Shown here: positions 25,615-50,782 of the stretch, in pieces | How the letters are laid out: each line of letters opens with the position of its first letter | Position numbering within the stretch: position 1 is the stretch's first letter | NCBI RefSeq assembly: GCF_001887775.1 | Contig: NZ_CP015519.1 | Location: 2,294,001 to 2,358,000, forward strand | DNA: 64,000 nt | DNA from: Syntrophotalea acetylenivorans | GTDB lineage: Bacteria; Desulfobacterota; Desulfuromonadia; Desulfuromonadales; Syntrophotaleaceae | Direction of reading: 5' to 3' | The notes under the pieces: model-generated | The model's database searches: none | Told to the model about the DNA's origin: nothing | What the model saw: the letters and a program-made list of their open reading frames with translations, nothing else | Position numbers and translations under genes: made by a program

Positions 25615-25637
25615 CTGGTCAGAAACGGAAGATAACA

Positions 25638-25845
25638 CCGCGGGGTCGCGTCCCCGCTCGACGCCTTACTCTCTTTTTACGCGAAAAGAGAGTAAGCAGA
25701 GAAACGCGTCCCGGCTCCTTGCCCTGCGGGTACCCTACGCTACGCAGACGTTTTGCGGGCGGGGAAAAACTCGCTTCGCGCAGACAGTTTCCCCGCCTGT
25801 TTCGCAAAAGCGTCCACTTCGCTCCGGTAGCGTCACAGGGGGGGA
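25638..25845 (+). repeat. Dispersed repeat, module A, copy 1
   Basis: About 208 bp running from CGGGGTCGCGTCCCCGCTCG through TTACTCTCTTTTTACGCG, CGGCTCCTTGCCCTGCGGG, GACGTTTTGCGGGCGGGG and CTTCGCTCCGGTAGCGTCAC to a G-run. The same ordered blocks recur at 27461, 41832 (inverted), 43661 and 49762, and in diverged form at 36814 and 50290. It contains inverted repeats (TTACTCTCTTTT/AAAAGAGAGTAA). Open frames across it are by-products. Confidence 0.9.
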
Positions 25846-25892
25846 TAGGTCAAAGTTGTTAAGAATCAGTTTGAAGCTTTTCACTTTTTTGA

Positions 25893-26026
25893 TTTCATCC
25901 CCTGAGAGTGCCGCCGAACGGAGGGATTTTAATCCGGAATAGAAAGACGTCTGAGCGTAGCGAATCTCGTCTTTCCCGGATTAAAACTCTCGGAGAGAGG
26001 GAACCCCGTAGGGGCAAACGGTGGGG
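25893..26026 (+). repeat. Dispersed repeat, module B, left of the insertion element
   Basis: A block starting TTTCATCCCCTGAGAGTGCC and ending GGGGCAAACGGTGGGG. It has a long inverted repeat, GATTTTAATCCGG against CCGGATTAAAACT, about 60 bp apart. A near-identical block lies at 50026-50158. Here it is cut at its right end by the IS481-family element. Confidence 0.85.
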
Positions 26027-26027
26027 T

Positions 26028-27338
26028 GTACGAGTCAAGGACATAGGTAACACAAAAGTTCGCATACATAGGTTACACATTAAGCTTCAAGTAGTCGTTG
26101 TGGGCTTTCTTGATATCCCGCATATCGAAGCTGCCTAATCTCAATGGTCCAAAATGAACGTCCCAGATGCCATCAGCGGTTTCTTCGACACCGACCTTTT
26201 CGCTCTTGAGAAGGCCGGCGACGTAAACACGATGCCCTTGATGATGAATGATGCCGCTGTGATGAACTAAGGCAATTCGAAAGTAGCCAGGATACTCTAT
26301 CTCCGGTAGCTTTTCAGGCATGCTGCGTGTTGAGGGACTGTACTTCGATGCCGGTGTTGTTTGTCCAAGGCTTTCATGAGGGCGTTCGTTATTGTACTGC
26401 TGGCGAAATGCATCAAACGCCTGCTGTTGAAGCTGGGCTGTTGGCGCCGGAGGAATGGCCGTAGCGTTCTTAAGTGTTCTGTGCATCCGTTCATGCCGCC
26501 CATTTTGTTGAGGCTTTCCCGGTTCAATTCGTTCTGGCACGATGCCCAGGCGAATCCACCATTTGGATAGCTGGGACAGTCCACCGGGCGAGTTAGAGGC
26601 AAAGGGTACGCCATTATCGGTACGAATGCGCCATGGCAACCCATACTCCCGGAAAAGGGATTCAAAAGCGTCTCTGGTTGGTTCTAGCCGCGGCCCTGGA
26701 AAATTTATGCATTCTAAAAGGTAACGGCATTGATGATCCATTACGGTGAGTGGATAACACCAAGTGCCATCTCTAGTCTTGAATTGCCCTTTGAAGTCCG
26801 CCGACCAGACATCGTTCGGGTGATGCACTGGAGAAAAGGGCTGCTGACCGACAGGAACCGGTTTGCGCCGTCTTTGAGGACGAATCAATCCTTCCTCCGC
26901 CAGGACCTTGTAGATGGTCGTCTTGGAAGGGATGTCCCATTCTGGGTGGTTCTGCCTCAGTAGCACTTGAATCTTTTTCGGCCCCGGCGGATCCCGCTGG
27001 CTTGAACGGAGGCCAATGATCGCTTTGCGTACGGTAAAGGGTGTCTTCAGGGGGTGTTGATGGGGCTTCCGAGGTTGGTCTTGCAACCCCTCGAAACCTA
27101 GTTCCCTGTAGCGAGCCACCCACTTGTAGCCGGTCTTTCGGCTAATACCGTAACGGTGACAAAGGCCTTTGAAGGTGTCCATCGCTCGAAGGTGGTCGGC
27201 AATAAACAGCAGCTTCTGGTCCATAGGTTTCACCTCTTTCCAGGGCATGGGCACCTCCTTGTAGAAAGTGCCTATAGGATACAAAAAGTGTTACCCATGT
27301 ACCTGAACTAAAGTGTTACCTATGTTTATGAACCGTAC
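26028..27338. mobile_element. IS481-family insertion sequence
   Basis: About 1.31 kb with imperfect terminal inverted repeats of roughly 53 bp. Both ends start GTACG and carry ACATAGGTAACAC at the same offset (26041-26053, and inverted at 27313-27325). The single transposase gene fills it. The ends were placed by comparing with the uninterrupted repeat near 50.15 kb, where GGTGGGGCGACC is continuous; here the halves are separated by the element, possibly with a GG duplication. It looks intact. Confidence 0.85.
26073..27248 (-). CDS. IS481-family transposase
   Basis: A 391-residue transposase. I start at the ATG at 27248 (MPWKEVKPMDQKLLFIADHL), which follows AAGGAGGT; the upstream in-frame codon lacks one. 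An N-terminal helix-turn-helix (GISRKTGYKWVARYRELG) is followed by an integrase core with all three acidic residues: Asp in VWSADFKGQF, Asp in RTDNGVPF and Glu in PQQNGRHERMHRTL. The stop lies inside the left terminal repeat. No frameshift or premature stop is seen, so it may be active. Confidence 0.95.
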   Translation of the reverse strand: MPWKEVKPMDQKLLFIADHLRAMDTFKGLCHRYGISRKTGYKWVARYRELGFEGLQDQPRKPHQHPLKTPFTVRKAIIGLRSSQRDPPGPKKIQVLLRQNHPEWDIPSKTTIYKVLAEEGLIRPQRRRKPVPVGQQPFSPVHHPNDVWSADFKGQFKTRDGTWCYPLTVMDHQCRYLLECINFPGPRLEPTRDAFESLFREYGLPWRIRTDNGVPFASNSPGGLSQLSKWWIRLGIVPERIEPGKPQQNGRHERMHRTLKNATAIPPAPTAQLQQQAFDAFRQQYNNERPHESLGQTTPASKYSPSTRSMPEKLPEIEYPGYFRIALVHHSGIIHHQGHRVYVAGLLKSEKVGVEETADGIWDVHFGPLRLGSFDMRDIKKAHNDYLKLNV

Positions 27339-27340
27339 CC

Positions 27341-27415
27341 GGCGACCTTCTTTTGCTTACTTTTCTTGGTCGTCAAGAAAAGTAAGACGCCTGGCCGGGC
27401 GGAACCGGCCGACCT
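27341..27415 (+). repeat. Dispersed repeat, module C, right of the insertion element
   Basis: GGCGACCTTCTTTTGCTTAC, then a perfect hairpin TTACTTTTCTTG-GTCGT-CAAGAAAAGTAA, then CGCCTGGCCGGGCGG and CCGGCCGACC. The same block lies at 50159-50232, where it directly follows module B. Confidence 0.85.
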
Positions 27416-27460
27416 TTGGTTTGGGTCTTTATTTGCAAACGCTACAGGACAAGATTCAAG

Positions 27461-27672
27461 AACGCGGGGTTGCGCCCCCGCGCGACGCCTTACTCTTTTT
27501 ACGCGCCAAAAAAGAATAAGCAGAAAAAGGCGCCCCGGCTCCTTGCCCTACGGGTTCCCTACGCTACGCAGACGTTTTGCGGGCGGGGAAAAACTCGCTT
27601 CGCTCAGACAGTTTCCCCGCCTGTTTCGCAAAAGCGTCCACTTCGCTCCGGCTGCGTCACAGGGGGAGGGTG
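27461..27672 (+). repeat. Dispersed repeat, module A, copy 2
   Basis: About 212 bp, same blocks as copy 1 (GCGGGGTTGCGCCCCCGCGC, TTACTCTTTTTACGCGCC, GACGTTTTGCGGGCGGGG, CTTCGCTCCGGCTGCGTCAC). With modules A, B and C to the left it makes the composite A-B-C-A. The remaining 60 bp up to the aldo/keto reductase stop holds only an A/T-rich stretch with TCACCGATCACTGATCACG. Confidence 0.9.
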
Positions 27673-27735
27673 GATCAGGTTTTACCGATTACTCATCACC
27701 GATCACTGATCACGTCTTACGGATTCCCGTAAAGA

Positions 27736-28887
27736 TCAATCCTCCGGCTTTTCGCTCAACACCCGATGAGCTTCCTCCAGCATGTCCATAATCTGTATAT
27801 GCTGTGGGCAGGCCGCTTCGCACTGACCGCAGCGGGTGCAGTTGCTGGCCAGATCAGAGGCGTTCATGGTGATGGTGTAGATACGGTGCGGGAAACGCTG
27901 GTCACCATAGATAAAGCAGTCGTTGTAAATGGAGAAAATGCGGGGAATGTTGACCCCTGCCGGGCAGGGCAGGCAATAACCGCAGGCGGTGCAGGGTACT
28001 TTGATACGGTGTCGCAATTGATCCCGTACCTCATTGGTCAGGGCTTTCTCTTCGTTACTCAAGGAATCCGGTTGTACCGTGCCGGCCAGGTGACAGTTTT
28101 CCTCCAGTTGTGACAAGTCGTTCATGCCGCTCAGCAGGCAGGTGACCTCCGGGCGATCCCACACCCAACGCAGCGCCCATTCGGCCGGACTGCGCTGAAC
28201 CGCGGCCCGGTCCCACAATCGCTGGATTTCAGGCGGTGCCGGACGGGCCAGGTGTCCGCCCCGCAGCGGCTCCATGACGATCACCCCCAGGCCCTTCGCC
28301 GCCGCATATTCCAGACCGACCCGACCGGCCTGAATCTCCTCGTCCATATAGTTGTACTGAATCTGGCAGAAGCTCCAGTCGTACGCATCGACGATGGTTT
28401 TGAACAGCGGCAGCTCGTCGTGAAAAGAGAATCCGGCACAGCCGATACGGCCGTCGGCAATGGCCCGGTCGAGAAAATCAAGGACTCCCAGGTCGTAAAG
28501 TTTAGTCCACCAGTCGGACTTGAGGGCGTGCAGTAGATAGCAGTCGATATGGTCGGTACGCAGCCGCTGCAATTGCTCGTTAAGATAGCGGTCAAAGTCC
28601 TTGGGGCTTTCGATGGCCCAGGACGGCAACTTGCTGGCCAGCTGCACACGGTTGCGTAGGCCGTTACGCTCCAGAGCTCGACCCAGGAAGGTTTCGCTGT
28701 GGCCCTGATGATAGGGGTAGGCGGTATCGAAATAGTTGATGCCACGATCGATGGCTCGGTACAGCAGCTCACTGGCTCGGGCTTCGTCGATACGGCTTTC
28801 GTTGCCATCAATGACCGGTAGGCGCATACAGCCCATACCGAGAATCGAGACGCTGTGGTCGAAATGGCCGAGCCGGCGATATTGCAT
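27736..28887 (-). CDS. Aldo/keto reductase with C-terminal ferredoxin-like domain
   Basis: A 383-residue protein. Residues 1-275 are an aldo/keto reductase barrel (QYRRLGHFDHSVSILGMGCM, the catalytic-site NYFDTAYPYHQGHSE, LASKLPSW and DCYLLHAL). Residues of about 290-370 add Cys-rich motifs CTACGYCLPCPAGVN and CTRCGQCEAACP, suited to 4Fe-4S clusters. This fusion is common in anaerobes; the substrate is unknown, and electrons may come from ferredoxin-like partners rather than NADPH. GGAG lies 7 bases before the ATG. Confidence 0.92.
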   Translation of the reverse strand: MQYRRLGHFDHSVSILGMGCMRLPVIDGNESRIDEARASELLYRAIDRGINYFDTAYPYHQGHSETFLGRALERNGLRNRVQLASKLPSWAIESPKDFDRYLNEQLQRLRTDHIDCYLLHALKSDWWTKLYDLGVLDFLDRAIADGRIGCAGFSFHDELPLFKTIVDAYDWSFCQIQYNYMDEEIQAGRVGLEYAAAKGLGVIVMEPLRGGHLARPAPPEIQRLWDRAAVQRSPAEWALRWVWDRPEVTCLLSGMNDLSQLEENCHLAGTVQPDSLSNEEKALTNEVRDQLRHRIKVPCTACGYCLPCPAGVNIPRIFSIYNDCFIYGDQRFPHRIYTITMNASDLASNCTRCGQCEAACPQHIQIMDMLEEAHRVLSEKPED

Positions 28888-36759: not shown

Positions 36760-36813
36760 TGGTACAGGATGGTTTGGTTGGAGATACGATCGTTTATGTT
36801 TAGCATTAAAATC

Positions 36814-36985
36814 GGCAGGTCGCGTCCCGCCAGAAGTCTTCCCTTTTGTCCAGACGGCAACAAACGTGTTGACCACTACCCTGCACCGCGCAGACATTTT
36901 GCGGGCGGAAAAACCCGCTGCCCTCGGACCATTTTTCGCCTTGATCGCAAAACGTCCACTCCGCTCCAGCTTGGTCACAGGGGAT
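36814..36985 (+). repeat. Dispersed repeat, module A, diverged copy
   Basis: Same block order but more changed: GGTCGCGTCCCGCCAGAAGT, CCGCGCAGACATTTTGCGGG, CGCAAAACGTCCACTCCGCT and GTCACAGGGG. It shares the CGTCCCGCCAGA variant with the copy at 50290. It fills most of the space between the SprT-like gene and panE. Confidence 0.75.
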
Positions 36986-37038
36986 GTAGGGTCAAAAAGC
37001 AACAGAACTTACACCGTTGTCGATCTATTTCCGCTGAA

Positions 37039-40062: not shown

Positions 40063-41778
40063 ATGGATAATAGTAACGACAGCAACGCTCCTGCGGCACC
40101 GAGCAACTTTATTCGTACTCTCATCGACAAGGACCTGGCCGCCGGCAAGAACGACGGTGCCGTGATCACCCGTTTCCCGCCGGAGCCCAACGGCTATCTG
40201 CATATCGGTCATGCCAAGAGTTTTTGTCTCAATTTCGGCTTGGCCCGCGACTATGCCGATGCGCCAGGAGGTGCCCGCTGCCATCTGCGTTTTGACGATA
40301 CCAACCCGGTTAAAGAAGAGCAGGAGTATATCGACGCGATCAAGGAGAACGTGCGCTGGCTCGGTTTCGATTGGGGGGAGCACGAATACTATGCGTCGGA
40401 TTATTTCGACCAGCTCTATGCCTGGGCGTTGCAGCTCATTGAGGCCGGCAAGGCCTACGTCGACGATCTGTCGGCGGAGGAGATACGTACCTATCGCGGA
40501 ACCCTGACCGAGCCGGGCAAAAACAGCCCTTATCGCGACAGGTCGGTGGCGGAGAACCGGGAACTGTTCGAGAAGATGAAGAATGGCGACTATCCGGATG
40601 GCGCCAAGGTGCTGCGGGCCAAGATCGATATGGCTTCGCCCAACCTGAATATGCGGGATCCGGTCTTGTACCGTATCCTCCACGCCGAGCACCATCGCAC
40701 CGGCAGCAAGTGGTGCATCTATCCCATGTACGACTTTACCCACGGGCAGAGCGATTCTCTGGAGGGGGTCACCCACTCGATCTGCACCTTGGAATTTGCG
40801 GACCATCGGCCCCTTTACGACTGGTTCATCGAGCAACTCGGCATCCATCATCCCCAGCAGATCGAATTTGCCCGCCTCAACATCAACTATACGGTGATGA
40901 GCAAGCGTAAGCTGCTGGAACTGGTGGAAGGCGGCCATGTCAGCGGTTGGGACGATCCGCGCATGCCGACTTTGGCCGGCATGCGCCGCCGTGGCTACAC
41001 TCCGGCCTCGATTCGCAACTTCTGCGAGCGGATCGGTGTCTCGAAAAAGGGCAGCTGCGTCGATATCGGCTTCCTCGAAAGCTGCATTCGCGAAGACCTC
41101 GACCACAATGCGCCTCGGGCCATGGCGGTTCTCAATCCCCTGCGGGTGGTGATCGACAATTATCCCGAAGATCAGGTCGAAGAGTTCCAGGCGCCGGTTC
41201 ATCCCCAGCAACCCGAACGGGGCACCCGCACAGTGCCTTTCTCCAAAGTTCTGTACATCGAACGGGAAGATTTCATGGAGGAAGCGCCGAAGAAGTTCTT
41301 CCGTCTCGCCCCGGGCCGCGAGGTACGGCTGCGCTGCGCTTATTTCATTCGCTGCGAGGAGGTAATCAAGGATCCGGTCAGCGGCGAGGTCGTCGAGTTG
41401 CGCTGCAGCTACGATCCGGCTAGTCGCGGCGGTGCCTCCCCTGACGGACGCAAGGTCAAGGGAACCCTGCACTGGGTGTCTGCAGAGCACGCCCTGGACG
41501 CGGAAATCCGCCTCTATGACCGCCTGTTTCTCACGGAGAATCCTTCGGCGGATAAGGATGTCGATTTCAAGAGCCAGCTCAATCCCGAATCGCTGCAGGT
41601 GCTGAGCGGTTGCAAGGTGGAGCCGAGTCTGGCCGATGCTGTACCGGAGAGCCGCTACCAGTTTGAACGGCAGGGCTATTTCTGTGTCGACCAGGTCGAC
41701 AGTGTTGCCGGCCGGCTGGTGTTTAACCGCACCGTGACCTTGCGGGATTCGTGGGCGAAGATGGGTGGGAAGAAGTAG
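40063..41778 (+). CDS. glnS: Glutaminyl-tRNA synthetase
   Basis: A 571-residue class I synthetase. The HIGH signature is at 47-50 within [20 protein letters not shown]; the second signature is VMSKRKL near 278. The C-terminal anticodon-binding beta-barrels are present ([36 protein letters not shown]). The length is that of bacterial GlnRS. Its presence means this organism can charge tRNA-Gln directly. It is separated from ispF by 147 bp containing TTTTTCAACA repeats. Confidence 0.97.
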
Positions 41779-41831
41779 AGAAGGGACCCGTAAATCGTAA
41801 TCCGTGAGGCGTAATAGGTTAAATCTGCTGC

Positions 41832-42047
41832 CCCTCCTTCCCCTGTGACGCAGCCGGAGCGGAGTGGACGTTTTACGAAACAGGCGGGAAAACTGTTTGA
41901 GCGCAGCGAGTTTTTGCCCGCCCGTAAAATGTCTGCGCAGCGCTGGGGACCCGAAGGGCAAGGAGCTGGGGCGCGTTTTTTCTGCCTACCCTTTTGCCGC
42001 GCAGAAAAAGAGTAGGGCGTCGAGCGGGGACGCAACCCCGCGGTGTT
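41832..42047 (-). repeat. Dispersed repeat, module A, inverted copy between glnS and cysS
   Basis: The reverse complement carries the same series: CGGGGTTGCGTCCCCGCTCG, CCTACTCTTTTT, GGCAAAAGGG, CTTGCCCTTCGGGTCCCC, CATTTTACGGGCGGGC and CTCCGGCTGCGTCACAGGGG. It fills most of the 354-bp gap. The other 100 bp hold no recognisable gene; a GTTGAAAAC motif (42083) is similar to the TTTTTCAACA repeat. Confidence 0.9.
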
Positions 42048-42132
42048 GCCTTGAAGTTGGACAACCAATAACGGATAAGGCTCTGTTGAAAACTATGGAG
42101 TCTATCCGCTGAAAACAAGGAGAACCCGTTCC

Positions 42133-43641: not shown

Positions 43642-43660
43642 GGACAGGCGTAACTACAAG

Positions 43661-43780
43661 ACCGCTCGGTTGGGTCCCCGCTCGACGCCCTACTTTTTTA
43701 CGCGCCAAGAAAGAGTAGACAGAAAAAGGCACCCCAACTCCTTGCCTTTCGGATGCCCTGCGCTGCGTCACAGGGGGGAG
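43661..43780 (+). repeat. Dispersed repeat, module A, short copy
   Basis: GGTTGGGTCCCCGCTCGACG, TACTTTTTTACGCGCCAAGA, CTCCTTGCCTTTCGG and then directly CTGCGCTGCGTCACAGGGGG. The middle 100 bp (GACGTTTTGCGGGCGG to CACTTCGCTCCGG) are missing, apparently deleted between the repeated GCGCTGCG/GGCTGCG words. Most of the space between cysS and the permease gene is this element. Confidence 0.85.
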
Positions 43781-48745: not shown

Positions 48746-49731
48746 AGCTGGCCGATCTGGGTGAGTTCGGATTTATCGAGCGTATTCGAGGGGCGGTCGC
48801 CAGAAGCGAAGGCACCGGAGTTCGACTCGGAATCGGTGACGATTGCGCGGTGCTCGAATTACCGCCGGGGCAGGTACTTCTGACCAGTACCGATCTGCTT
48901 ATCGAGGAGATCCATTTCCGCTCGGATTGGAGCGACTGGCGGGCGCTGGGTAGCAAGTGCGTGTCCGTTAACGTCAGCGACGTAGCGGCCATGGGCGGCA
49001 GCCCGCGGCATCTCTATCTCGGGTTGGCGATTCCGGGCACGATGGCGATGGAAGACCTCGATGCCTTTTTGGAAGGTTTCCTGGAAGCCGCAGCAGGATA
49101 TGGAGCGGTGCTGGTCGGTGGCGATACCTGCCGTTCGCCGGGACCTCTGATGATTTCGGTGACCGTCGAAGGGGCGGCACCCACGGAACAGGTCGTTACT
49201 CGAGGCGGTGCTGGTCTCGGAGATTCCATCTATGTTTCAGGTACTCTCGGCGACAGCGCCCTGGCCCTGCAACGGTTGCAAGCCGATCGGCCGGTGACCG
49301 TTGAACTGGCTGATCGTCATCACCGGCCGCAAGCCCGGGTCGCCCTCGGTCGGGCTCTGGCCGAAGCGCAGTTGCCGAGCGCGATGATCGATGTATCCGA
49401 TGGAGTGTTGGCAGATCTCGGACATATCCTCGAAGCTTCGGCGGTCGGTGCCCGTTTGGAGCAGGCACTATTCCCCCTGTCATCGGGATTTTCCCAGGCG
49501 ATGGACGAAGAGCCGAGCCTTTTTGAATTGGCTCTGTCTGGTGGAGAGGATTACGAACTGCTGTTTACCGTGCCTGCGGACAAGGAACACGTGTTGGCTG
49601 AATTGATTGCCGACGTTCCGGTTACGCGTATCGGTACTGTGACGGAAGCGGAGCAGGGGTTTTTGCTGGCCGATCAGGCCGGGCAGGTGAGGCCGGTAAA
49701 GGCTAAGGGATTTAATCATTTTGCTGGTTAA
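48742..49731 (+). CDS. thiL: Thiamine-monophosphate kinase
   Basis: A 329-residue PurM-like enzyme. GIGDDCAVLELPPGQVLLTS, FRSDWSDWRALGSKCVSVNV, LVGGDTCRSPG and ALSGGEDYELLFTVP are the family motifs. It converts thiamine monophosphate to the diphosphate. It overlaps the end of lon by 4 bp and is probably translated from the same mRNA. Confidence 0.96.
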   Translation: MKLADLGEFGFIERIRGAVARSEGTGVRLGIGDDCAVLELPPGQVLLTSTDLLIEEIHFRSDWSDWRALGSKCVSVNVSDVAAMGGSPRHLYLGLAIPGTMAMEDLDAFLEGFLEAAAGYGAVLVGGDTCRSPGPLMISVTVEGAAPTEQVVTRGGAGLGDSIYVSGTLGDSALALQRLQADRPVTVELADRHHRPQARVALGRALAEAQLPSAMIDVSDGVLADLGHILEASAVGARLEQALFPLSSGFSQAMDEEPSLFELALSGGEDYELLFTVPADKEHVLAELIADVPVTRIGTVTEAEQGFLLADQAGQVRPVKAKGFNHFAG

Positions 49732-49761
49732 TCGGCCTTCAGTTTGCTTTTCCGAACTACA

Positions 49762-49973
49762 AGACCGCGGGGTTGCGTCCCCGCCCGACGCCCTACTCTT
49801 TTTACGCGCCAAAAAAGAGTAGGCAGAAAAAGGCGCCCCGGCTCCTTGCCCTTCGGGTCCCCTGCGCTGCGCAGACGTTTTGCGGGCGGAAAAAAACTCG
49901 CTGGCGCTCGGACAGTTTTCCGCCTGTTTCGCAAAACGTCCACTTCGCTCCGGCTGCGTTACAGGGGGAGGGA
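49762..49973 (+). repeat. Dispersed repeat, module A, copy in the second composite
   Basis: ACAAGACCGCGGGGTTGCGT, CCTACTCTTTTTACGCGCCA, CTTGCCCTTCGGGTCCCC, GACGTTTTGCGGGCGG, GTTTCGCAAAACGTCC and CTTCGCTCCGGCTGCGTTAC. The GACGTTTTGCGGGCGG and CCGCCTGTTTCGCAAAACGT parts form a long inverted repeat. Followed by an A/T-rich link (TTACGTATTACGCTTTACGC). Confidence 0.9.
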
Positions 49974-50025
49974 GGGGCACCAGCTTTTACGTATTACGCT
50001 TTACGCCTCACGAATTACGGTTTTC

Positions 50026-50232
50026 ACCCCCTGTGAGTGCCGCCGAGCGGAGGGATTTTAATCCGGAAATGAAAGACGTCTGAGCGAAGCGAATCTCGTC
50101 TTTCCCGGATTAAAATTCCCGGAGAGAGGGAACCCGCCGCAGGCGGGCAAACGGTGGGGCGACCTTCTTTTGGTTACTTTTCTTGGTCGTCAAGAAAAGT
50201 AACGCGCCTGGCCGGGCAAGACCGGCCGATAT
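50026..50232 (+). repeat. Dispersed repeat, modules B and C joined (uninterrupted)
   Basis: Module B (TCACCCCCTGTGAGTGCCGC to GGCAAACGGTGGGG) runs straight into module C (CGACCTTCTTTTGGTTAC, hairpin TTACTTTTCTTG-GTCGT-CAAGAAAAGTAA, then GGCCGGGCAAGACCGGCC). This is the intact form of the site split by the insertion element at 26028-27338. Confidence 0.9.
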
Positions 50233-50289
50233 TATGGTTTGCTTGGATTTCTGTTTTAGCTTTAGCAGGGTTGATTTACGAATAACAAC

Positions 50290-50606
50290 ACCGGCGGGTC
50301 GCGTCCCGCCAGACGCCTTCCTTTTTGTCCAGGCGGCAACAAAAAGGAAGCAAAAAATGCCTTGCCACTGCGTGGGGCATGCTGTGATGGATGGCAGGAG
50401 AAGGCCAAAAACTTTTGACCTGGCACACCGTGCTGGCGATTTCTTTGGGCGGCCCCTCTTCCGAAAGTCGATTGCTATCTTGATCGGTCCCTTTTTCTTG
50501 CCAACATTGATCGTAGGGGTTGCTGGGTTTAAAACCTTCAAACTAATTCAAGTTCGCTGCTTTCCCTGCGGGCGCCTTGCGCTGCGTCACAGGGAATGGA
50601 GGGGAA
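50290..50606 (+). repeat. Dispersed repeat, module A variant with an internal insert
   Basis: It starts CCGGCGGGTCGCGTCCCGCC, continues ACGCCTTCCTTTTTGTCCAG with its complement AAAAAGGAAG, then has about 190 bp of unrelated sequence (from GCATGCTGTGATGGATGGCA) before TTCCCTGCGGGCGCCTTGCG and CTGCGTCACAGGGA. It is the fourth part of the A-B-C-A composite. The remaining 170 bp up to lolA show no gene. Confidence 0.75.
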
Positions 50607-50782
50607 CCAGGTTTTACCTGTTACGCCTCACGCCTTACGGATTACGGATTTCACCCCATAGGGGCAAAATAAAAATTAAAGCTGTAATCTTACAGCTTGT
50701 TTTTACGTCCAAACGGAGAAGACACGGAAACCGGCCGATTGGGTGTAATTTGGACTATTAAAAGCAAAGGAGAAAAACTTCT

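Follow-up and report, generated by a model that had tools for sequence, protein, structure and literature searches.

Alternating inverted intergenic repeats in Syntrophotalea acetylenivorans and its relatives share a covarying head with two predicted pseudoknots and a putative third strand

Downstream of thiL, the chromosome of Syntrophotalea acetylenivorans carries a long block of palindrome-rich repeats, and similar sequences recur between other genes of the same 64,000-nt stretch of DNA (hereafter the window). This raises the question of whether such repeats represent a structured RNA, a mobile element, sites of use to the host, or ordinary old intergenic sequence. We addressed it by comparing the repeats within the window, across the genome, and across related bacteria.

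Repeat units of the window and their arrangement

A self-BLAST of the window recovered both the repeated blocks (49761 to ~50657, and 25634–26026 plus 27341–27699) and the single copies (36813–36996, 41788–42048 in inverted orientation, and 43652–43767) noticed in a preliminary description of the sequence. These repeats are real and far beyond chance. Their organization is not the A-B-C-A succession of modules initially proposed: B and C are not separate modules and jointly, once inverted, constitute a diverged A, while the last "A" (from 50287 onward) belongs to a third type, which shares the head of A and has a different body. Aligning A with reverse-complemented B+C gave a score of 104, whereas none of 200 dinucleotide shuffles exceeded 72 (z 8.2); without inversion, z was −1.2. 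In addition, an HMM trained only on four A1 copies recovers A2 units, reversed, in this genome and in related ones. Since B+C is a diverged homologue of A on the other strand, the block after thiL reads A1(+) A2(−) A3(+), and the window blocks are alternating inverted units of a single repeat family. The corresponding features are listed below by window position; R1 denotes a covariance model of the unit head (79 positions, 17 pairs, from 22 heads).

49761..49968, + strand: unit A1 after thiL, with h1, h2 and third strand, GGGTCCCCT, long hairpin h4, and a CACAGGGG-type end
49767..49784, + strand: head hairpin h1, GCGGGG-loop-CCCCGC, with loop GCGT predicted to pair with ACGC just 3' (pseudoknot PK1)
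49792..49823, + strand: head hairpin h2, a 12-bp stem whose loop is predicted to pair with GGCGC downstream (pseudoknot PK2)
49824..49831, + strand: putative third strand CAGAAAAA, past its C the parallel complement of the h2 5' arm
49874..49940, + strand: long hairpin h4, with an apical loop in this copy of c(GNNA)g on the bottom strand
50030..50236, − strand: unit A2 (formerly B+C), diverged inverted homologue of A1, with its head at 50157–50233
50287..50600, + strand: unit A3, type-3 head and body, with a short A1-like tail at the end (GCGTCACAGGG)
25634..25846, + strand: unit A1 left of the split A2 (self-BLAST, R1)
25900..26027, − strand: tail part of the IS-split A2 unit (self-BLAST)
26073..27284, − strand: IS481-type transposase ORF in the insertion splitting A2 (PF13683/PF13011 matches)
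27340..27416, − strand: head of the split A2 unit (R1)
27457..27668, + strand: unit A1 right of the split A2 (self-BLAST, R1)
36813..36996, + strand: degenerate unit with a type-3-like start and an A1-like tail (no R1 head match)
41840..42048, − strand: unit A1 upstream of cysS, a site that is empty or otherwise filled in relatives
43655..43775, + strand: short A1 unit without h4 (self-BLAST, R1)

Run over the window, R1 identified eight full-length heads (25634+, 27340−, 27458+, 41969−, 43658+, 49761+, 50157−, and 50287+) and none in the unit at 36813. The split copy reported at 25638–27672 is indeed an A1-A2-A1 block as after thiL, interrupted by an IS481-type element inside A2; this element (26030–27340) has GTAC on either side. 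The unit at 36813 is degenerate, and the inner hairpin is missing from the copy at 43658, as it is from another at genome position 2125759, the deletion sitting at a GCTGCG repeat. Degenerate TTACGCCTCACGAATTACGG-like runs, apparently repeated, occur in spacers beside units (50000–50020, 50618–50650, 27690–27712, and 41790–41815), and open frames of 130–192 aa cross the repeats at 27366–27791 (+), 50183–50761 (+), and 41676–42068 (−). Such frames could be mis-annotated as proteins.

The basic unit spans 210–300 nt and comprises a conserved ~80-nt head followed by one of at least three bodies. The third type, assigned by eye, numbers 19 copies with the same head, most of which continue into a different conserved body of ~290 nt, a few losing the body after the head. 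In the loci retrieved from relatives, neighboring heads <800 bp apart had opposite orientations in 103 of 109 pairs and the same orientation in 6, a count that refers to loci hand-picked around known matches, many for their array-like look; in S. acetylenivorans itself, 8 such pairs were opposite and none the same. The count for relatives was drawn from R1 matches in loci L175–L254, excluding partial echo matches, the window, cross-phylum loci, and three weak full-length matches (L188 148−, which overlaps another head, L179 1883−, and L205 340−). Spacing in these loci was 349–473 bp tail to tail (one of 132) and 99–210 bp head to head. In eight arrays from six genomes, mean identity was 57–65% to the next unit and 81–99% to the next but one, indicating that two types alternate. 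Head types A1 and A2 are thus paired tail to tail in inverted orientation, and such pairs are extended into alternating arrays. One pair in a Caballeronia locus (L171) has tails complementary to each other, with 22 bases matching exactly, and in a relative (G039:C4, 26895–35270) an 8.4-kb region contains two alternating, satellite-like arrays whose repeat length is ~640 bp.

Copy number, spread, and turnover

Contrary to the possibility that only the window copies exist, many more were found in the same genome and in relatives by both BLAST and R1. A BLAST search of the 3.22-Mb genome with A found 27 matches (E ≤ 0.001), and R1 found 48, of which 41 are full-length (E ≤ 6.4e-8), one is full-length and weak (0.003), and six are partial, matching the palindromic stem from the opposite strand. 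The resulting 42 heads lie in 30 loci, and 17 of these loci are clustered within a single 400-kb region, compared with 12 at the 99th percentile when 33 points were placed at random 2000 times. No R1 match occurs over ~1 Mb at 0.92–1.96 Mb, while 26 of the 42 heads lie within 400 kb at 1.97–2.34 Mb.

Of 147 genomes of relatives (own genome included), 101 gave a BLAST match to A-B-C, and 125, from 48 of 61 genera, an R1 match at E ≤ 1e-5, with at least 32 matches in one relative (G006); ten of the 22 genomes lacking a head at this threshold belong to other orders, and several are incomplete. A scan of the phylum with R1 gave matches at E ≤ 0.001 in 25 of 297 genomes (own included), many of them weak (E 1e-4 to 1e-8), and 27 classes of these were examined. 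A head pattern of 28 specified bases retrieved 56 stretches from a collection of species genomes, all titled as Desulfuromonadales or its members, Geobacteraceae, or plain Deltaproteobacteria. A search of a plasmid collection with a head consensus returned 12 records, from Caballeronia, Paraburkholderia, Pseudoalteromonas, Variovorax, Chitinibacter, and Ilyobacter. R1 matched all eight loci taken further (six of these records and two viral contigs; best E 1.5e-14 to 6.8e-6), although these loci had been selected with searches for that motif, by pattern or query, and the scores are partly so by construction. One of the loci (L168) holds a complete A unit with its tail, and comparison of the window unit with phage and plasmid DNA by DNA similarity gave no match. 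From these motif matches, heads appear to be carried by replicons of some Beta- and Gammaproteobacteria and of Ilyobacter.

Copy number and orientation vary among relatives at the same gene pairs. At the cysS site, where S. acetylenivorans has one A1(−), one relative (G001) has a short A1(+) and an A2(−), and seven others (G005–G009, G016, and G017) have gaps of 37–106 bp, too small for a unit; the 106-bp gap of G007 may contain what is left of one. The 25.6-kb site is occupied by five alternating units in G002 and by a single A1 unit with remnants in G003, and is a 369-bp gap in G004. The same gene pairs hence hold other copies or none, which is not the pattern of identical copies at identical loci that ancient sequence would leave.

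Within S. acetylenivorans, 16 of the 42 heads lie between convergent, 25 between tandem, and one between divergent genes, and the 25 between tandem genes show no strand preference (13 on the same strand as the genes, 12 on the opposite one). One third of the heads (14 of 42) are ≤100 bp from a stop codon. These are raw counts, not set against the genome's own share of such gaps, obtained with a simple home-made gene caller that placed weak ORFs over four heads.

Covariation of stems, pseudoknots, and a putative third strand

We evaluated conservation of the fold on two alignments, one of 38 of 45 full A units (30 genomes, 244 columns; two aberrant units and five near-duplicates omitted) and one of heads (A4), fitted to R1 and made from the best 150 of 247 R1 matches, i.e., 131 distinct heads. 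Strong covariation in the stems, the check suggested in the preliminary description, was evident in both as well as in a mutual-information scan. RNAalifold predicted 46 pairs on the A units, 26 with double changes. Across the 131 heads, Watson-Crick pairs accounted for 731 of 776 h1 cells (3 G-T, 7 A-C, 35 other) and 1396 of 1436 h2 cells (6 G-T, 11 A-C, 23 other), and double changes were many (at one example pair, C-G 73, T-A 55, and T-G 1). Mismatches of the wobble type on the top strand were rare in h1 and h2 together, both as G-T (9 cells) and as A-C (18). The mutual-information scan (80% sequence weighting, 23.4 effective sequences) ranked highest mainly the stems, triplets linking a third strand to both arms of h2 (41-65-74, 43-62-76, 44-61-77, and 42-64-75), and the pairs 15-34 and 18-31, from which a second predicted pseudoknot (PK1) was recognized. 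Taken together, these comparisons indicate that the ~80-nt head covaries in two predicted stems, two predicted pseudoknots, and a putative third strand. Long-range pairs 27–31/229–233 of a first consensus fold were weakly supported (columns 28-232 broken in 9 of 38 units) and were dropped.

Both pseudoknots recur with different sequences. In PK2, the h2 loop pairs with bases past the third strand (GCGCC/GGCGC, TGCCC/GGGCA, CACC/GGTG, TGTC/GACA, CGACC/GGTCG), with a mean longest match of 4.36 in 77 classes (1000 shuffles: mean 3.19, maximum 3.48). In PK1, the h1 loop pairs with the h1–h2 spacer (GCGTC/GACGC, CTCGCC/GGCGAG, GCGGC/GCCGC), with a match of 4.20 in 64 classes (2000 shuffles: mean 3.36, maximum 3.73); 23 of these classes reach ≤3 bp, and the longer matches use, for their fifth pair, the base that begins the h1 3' arm. 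Some heads from other orders (L231–L233) have loops of 3–4 nt, which leave no room for PK2.

A linker of one C and ~7 purines connects the h2 3' arm to the second strand of PK2, and its purines are the parallel, not antiparallel, complement of the h2 5' arm (e.g., TTCTTTT/AAGAAAA, TTTTCTT/AAAAGAA, TCTCTTT/AGAGAAA, and TTCTCTT/AAGAGAA). In the A4 heads, 626 of 631 cells in columns 40–44 are complementary (131/131, 125/126 with 74 C-G and 51 T-A, 121/121, 124/124, and 125/129, respectively), with weaker flanks (108/129 in column 45, 72/126 in column 46, and only 2/131 in column 39). The 29 arm/linker classes score 160 of 203, against a maximum of 144 in 2000 shuffles; over three variable columns, the weighted complement fraction is 0.987 at offset 33 and 0.40–0.66 at six other offsets; and the triplet columns rank together in the mutual-information scan. 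Because the alignments were gathered with models holding the consensus linker, A/G is favored there by construction, but a match to the arm is not. An earlier test on 93 units, two of them unparsed, gave 6.73 for the parallel match (shuffle maximum 6.14) and 5.63 for the antiparallel one (5.61). Among 43 heads outside A4, the 27 distinct classes found in other orders within the phylum (e.g., TTTTCTTT/AAAAGAAA and TTTCTTTTTT/AAAGAAAAAA) scored 8.04 in parallel (maximum of 500 shuffles, 7.48) and 7.15 in antiparallel, under its shuffle mean of 7.39, while seven classes from outside the phylum, almost all with a single symmetric pattern, are uninformative (7.14, shuffle maximum 7.29). An antiparallel or direct-repeat account of the linker was rejected on these antiparallel scores.

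No Watson-Crick fold that we could think of explains a parallel complement, which points to a base-triplet helix, and we interpret the linker as the putative third strand of an intrastrand triplex along h2. H-DNA alone was discarded as it leaves the pseudoknots unexplained. The head has three consecutive blocks on one strand (Y-R-R or its complement), the order that characterizes the PIT class. By the definitions of PMC4666352, the top strand would be a purine motif (class II), while the bottom strand, which runs from a Hoogsteen block through a pyrimidine to a purine block, would be class IV; the complement of TM_ECO is called class III in the same source. The bottom strand can also be modeled as an H-type pseudoknot, in which a pyrimidine loop would run across the deep groove of a long stem. 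The apical loop of the inner hairpin h4, taken on the bottom strand of 93 copies, is c(GNA)g in 58 copies and c(GNNA)g in a further 10, with 20 not fitting and 5 unparsed; loops of this type are unusually stable in DNA. In the pseudoknots of telomerase RNA and SAM-II, a pyrimidine strand crosses the deep groove and forms triples.

Candidate mechanisms and relation to known repeats

Beyond the established homology, alternation, copy turnover, and covariation of stems, pseudoknots, and third strand, our preferred reading, which we put at about even chances, is that of a BIME-like, non-coding, and non-autonomous repeat family whose single strand folds and is recognized in folded form. The head would fold as one strand into two hairpins, each loop pairing with sequence 3' of its hairpin, and the third strand would lie along h2, as a purine motif (class II) on the top strand and a pyrimidine motif on the bottom one. 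This fold could form when the DNA is single-stranded (replication, repair, or conjugation) or when it is transcribed, and would be recognized by a protein acting in trans, while arrays would probably grow and shrink through recombination between same-strand units 500–640 bp apart. The earlier suggestion of a mobile, possibly trans-mobilized element fits the turnover and the spread; on the other side, no enzyme, target duplication, or clean end was found, and a RAYT fits poorly. Filled and empty sites were too diverged for junction reading, and no target-site duplication or precise end was found between them; deletion and recombination alone could account for the turnover. A more specific and rather speculative version, which we consider doubtful, would make the double-pseudoknot, triple-helix head the recognized end of a new class of mobile repeats, spreading across several phyla via a folded single strand (bottom-strand RNA or ssDNA) and a putative enzyme. 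If true, the triplex, so far an in-vitro property of BoxC-like repeats, would be a selected working form.

Covariation strongly supports the "structured" half of the structured RNA proposed initially, and the molecule could be RNA or DNA. It is possible, if on balance unlikely, that the bottom strand is a transcribed structured RNA, with a double pseudoknot, a pyrimidine linker in the deep groove of h2 forming U.A-U and C+.G-C triples, and possibly a part in its own spread. The bottom-strand third strand is a parallel pyrimidine strand, which is the geometry of such triples, and the pseudoknots are what would be expected of a structured RNA. Bottom-strand G-U is commoner than top-strand G-U in h1 and h2 (18 vs 9) and at PK1 columns 18-31 (25 to 0), and the bottom-strand h4 loop is of the c(GNA)g or c(GNNA)g type in 68 of 93 copies. 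The excess is reversed, however, at PK1 columns 16-33 (2 to 12), wobble pairs are very few for an RNA family, orientation is unbiased relative to genes and alternates between units, and Rfam gave no match over the window at the gathering cut-off (a relaxed search of 49700–50700 gave five, all under it). The strand symmetry may point to DNA over RNA, with the reservation that A-C is rare in h1 and h2 as well as G-T. According to PMC4666352, purine-motif triplexes are impossible in RNA and pyrimidine-type ones, which are driven by T-A-T, possible, which would again favor the bottom strand for an RNA.

Among the remaining alternatives, selection for sites of use to the host (gyrase, IHF or other nucleoid proteins, terminators, or mRNA 3' protection) appears improbable: the single head between divergent genes and the 14 near stop codons would suit it as raw counts, yet copies turn over at the same gene pairs, some close relatives' sites and 22 of 147 genomes are without one, and duplex-binding sites need no covariation of a third strand or pseudoknots. 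A host function is not needed to account for the family. A classical REPIN/BIME family moved by a RAYT (Y1_Tnp) would explain the inverted pairs, the alternating arrays, and the intergenic position, mostly at gene 3' ends, and Y1_Tnp co-occurs with heads in most genomes (it is present in 127 of 147). We nonetheless regard it as very improbable, since Y1_Tnp does not follow the heads when tables are compared by inspection rather than by correlation: heads occur without a Y1_Tnp match in G031 (100% complete, 8 heads), G024 (2), G019 (1), and the less complete G051 and G103 (27 each), and Y1_Tnp occurs without a head at E ≤ 1e-5 in G050 (26 matches) and G140 (27, many partial). In addition, the only match in S. 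acetylenivorans, at 1504848, is 0.46 Mb from the nearest head. Ordinary ancient sequence or chance palindromes, for which the intergenic position and nothing more speaks, deserve next to no credence given the inverted homology, R1 counts, covariation, turnover, alternation, and spread over genomes.

The Y1_Tnp (RAYT-like) gene of S. acetylenivorans (within genome region 1503348–1506671) is flanked by its own repeat, GGGGACACCATACTCATTAG, from a different small family. The heads do not fit the BIME/REPIN pattern of 20–40-bp REPs with a RAYT in the genome and near them, as judged for adjacency at this gene and at the other listed places. A TnpB/omega RNA system was rejected, as PF07282 had no match in the genome. 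The single reverse transcriptase match there (RVT_1, 3213104) is not near heads; its gene (L307 1282–2535; PF00078, E 8.8e-43) looks of group II intron type by eye only.

Compared to described repeats, the closest known system is the intrastrand triplex repeat BoxC/PIT/TM_ECO of E. coli (PMC4666352), next to which the present family looks like a larger, distinct relative. In the text available for it, TM_ECO shares with the present heads a Y arm, a loop, an R arm, a short spacer, and a third R strand on one strand, as well as an intergenic position, lack of strand bias, and unstable loci; no transposase remnants are reported there, just as no enzyme was found for the present repeats. Where TM_ECO motifs lie as close inverted pairs, one member is always of type A and the other of type B, a pairing observed here with other sequences, as seen from the alternation and array identities. 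Unlike TM_ECO, which is G/C-rich with a fixed consensus of 34–37 nt and a first loop of 3–6 nt, the present heads are A/T-rich and pseudoknotted, have loops mostly ≥6 nt, and lie within a 210–300-nt unit; the ITxF search of PMC4666352 allowed loops of 1–6 nt and may therefore miss many of them. The main text of that paper contains no occurrence of pseudoknot, Desulf-, Pelobacter, Geobacter, or Burkholderia. The new point relative to known triplex repeats is three-way covariation, across families. Whether intrastrand triplex repeats act as triplexes in cells is an open question in the field, with no stable in-vivo footprint reported in the available text of Holder et al. (PMC4666352). Judging from its consensus, TM_ECO is probably too conserved for an evolutionary test, whereas in the present family the third strand tracks a variable stem sequence, so that the question becomes testable by comparison and by arm/linker swaps.

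Like REP/BIME/REPIN elements (PMC2817692 and PMC3116915, as far as their available text goes), the units are extragenic, palindromic, alternating, and regularly spaced, but they are several times longer, with no consistent RAYT link and with a predicted triplex and pseudoknots. They resemble MITEs in being short, non-coding, multi-copy, and intergenic with inverted ends, and differ from them in that no parent IS (looked for unsystematically) or target duplication was found. A "CGTC-tagged REP" identity was set aside, one spacer base being variable and the queried genus names being absent from the available text of PMC3733652. Multicopy sequences are described from the related bacteria Pelobacter carbinolicus (PMC3543383) and Geobacter bemidjiensis (PMC2996986), some G. 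bemidjiensis families being palindromic and intergenic, and the available text of these accounts names no triplex or pseudoknot. The present family was not found described in the available text of the repeat literature searched (including PMC3733652, PMC2267715, and PMC2674063), a search that stopped short of the supplementary multicopy lists for the two species. The family is a widespread and apparently undescribed part of Desulfuromonadales intergenic DNA, prone to protein mis-annotation.

BoxC might once have been a tail of such units. The TM_ECO consensus (CCCTCNCCCN3-6GGGNGAGGGN3GGGNGAGGG) is absent from 306 of 307 fetched loci, and in the remaining one it lies outside the heads. In that locus, from Variovorax paradoxus (CP063167.1), a TM_ECO inverted pair at 1680–1712 and 1756–1788 sits between two tail-to-tail heads.
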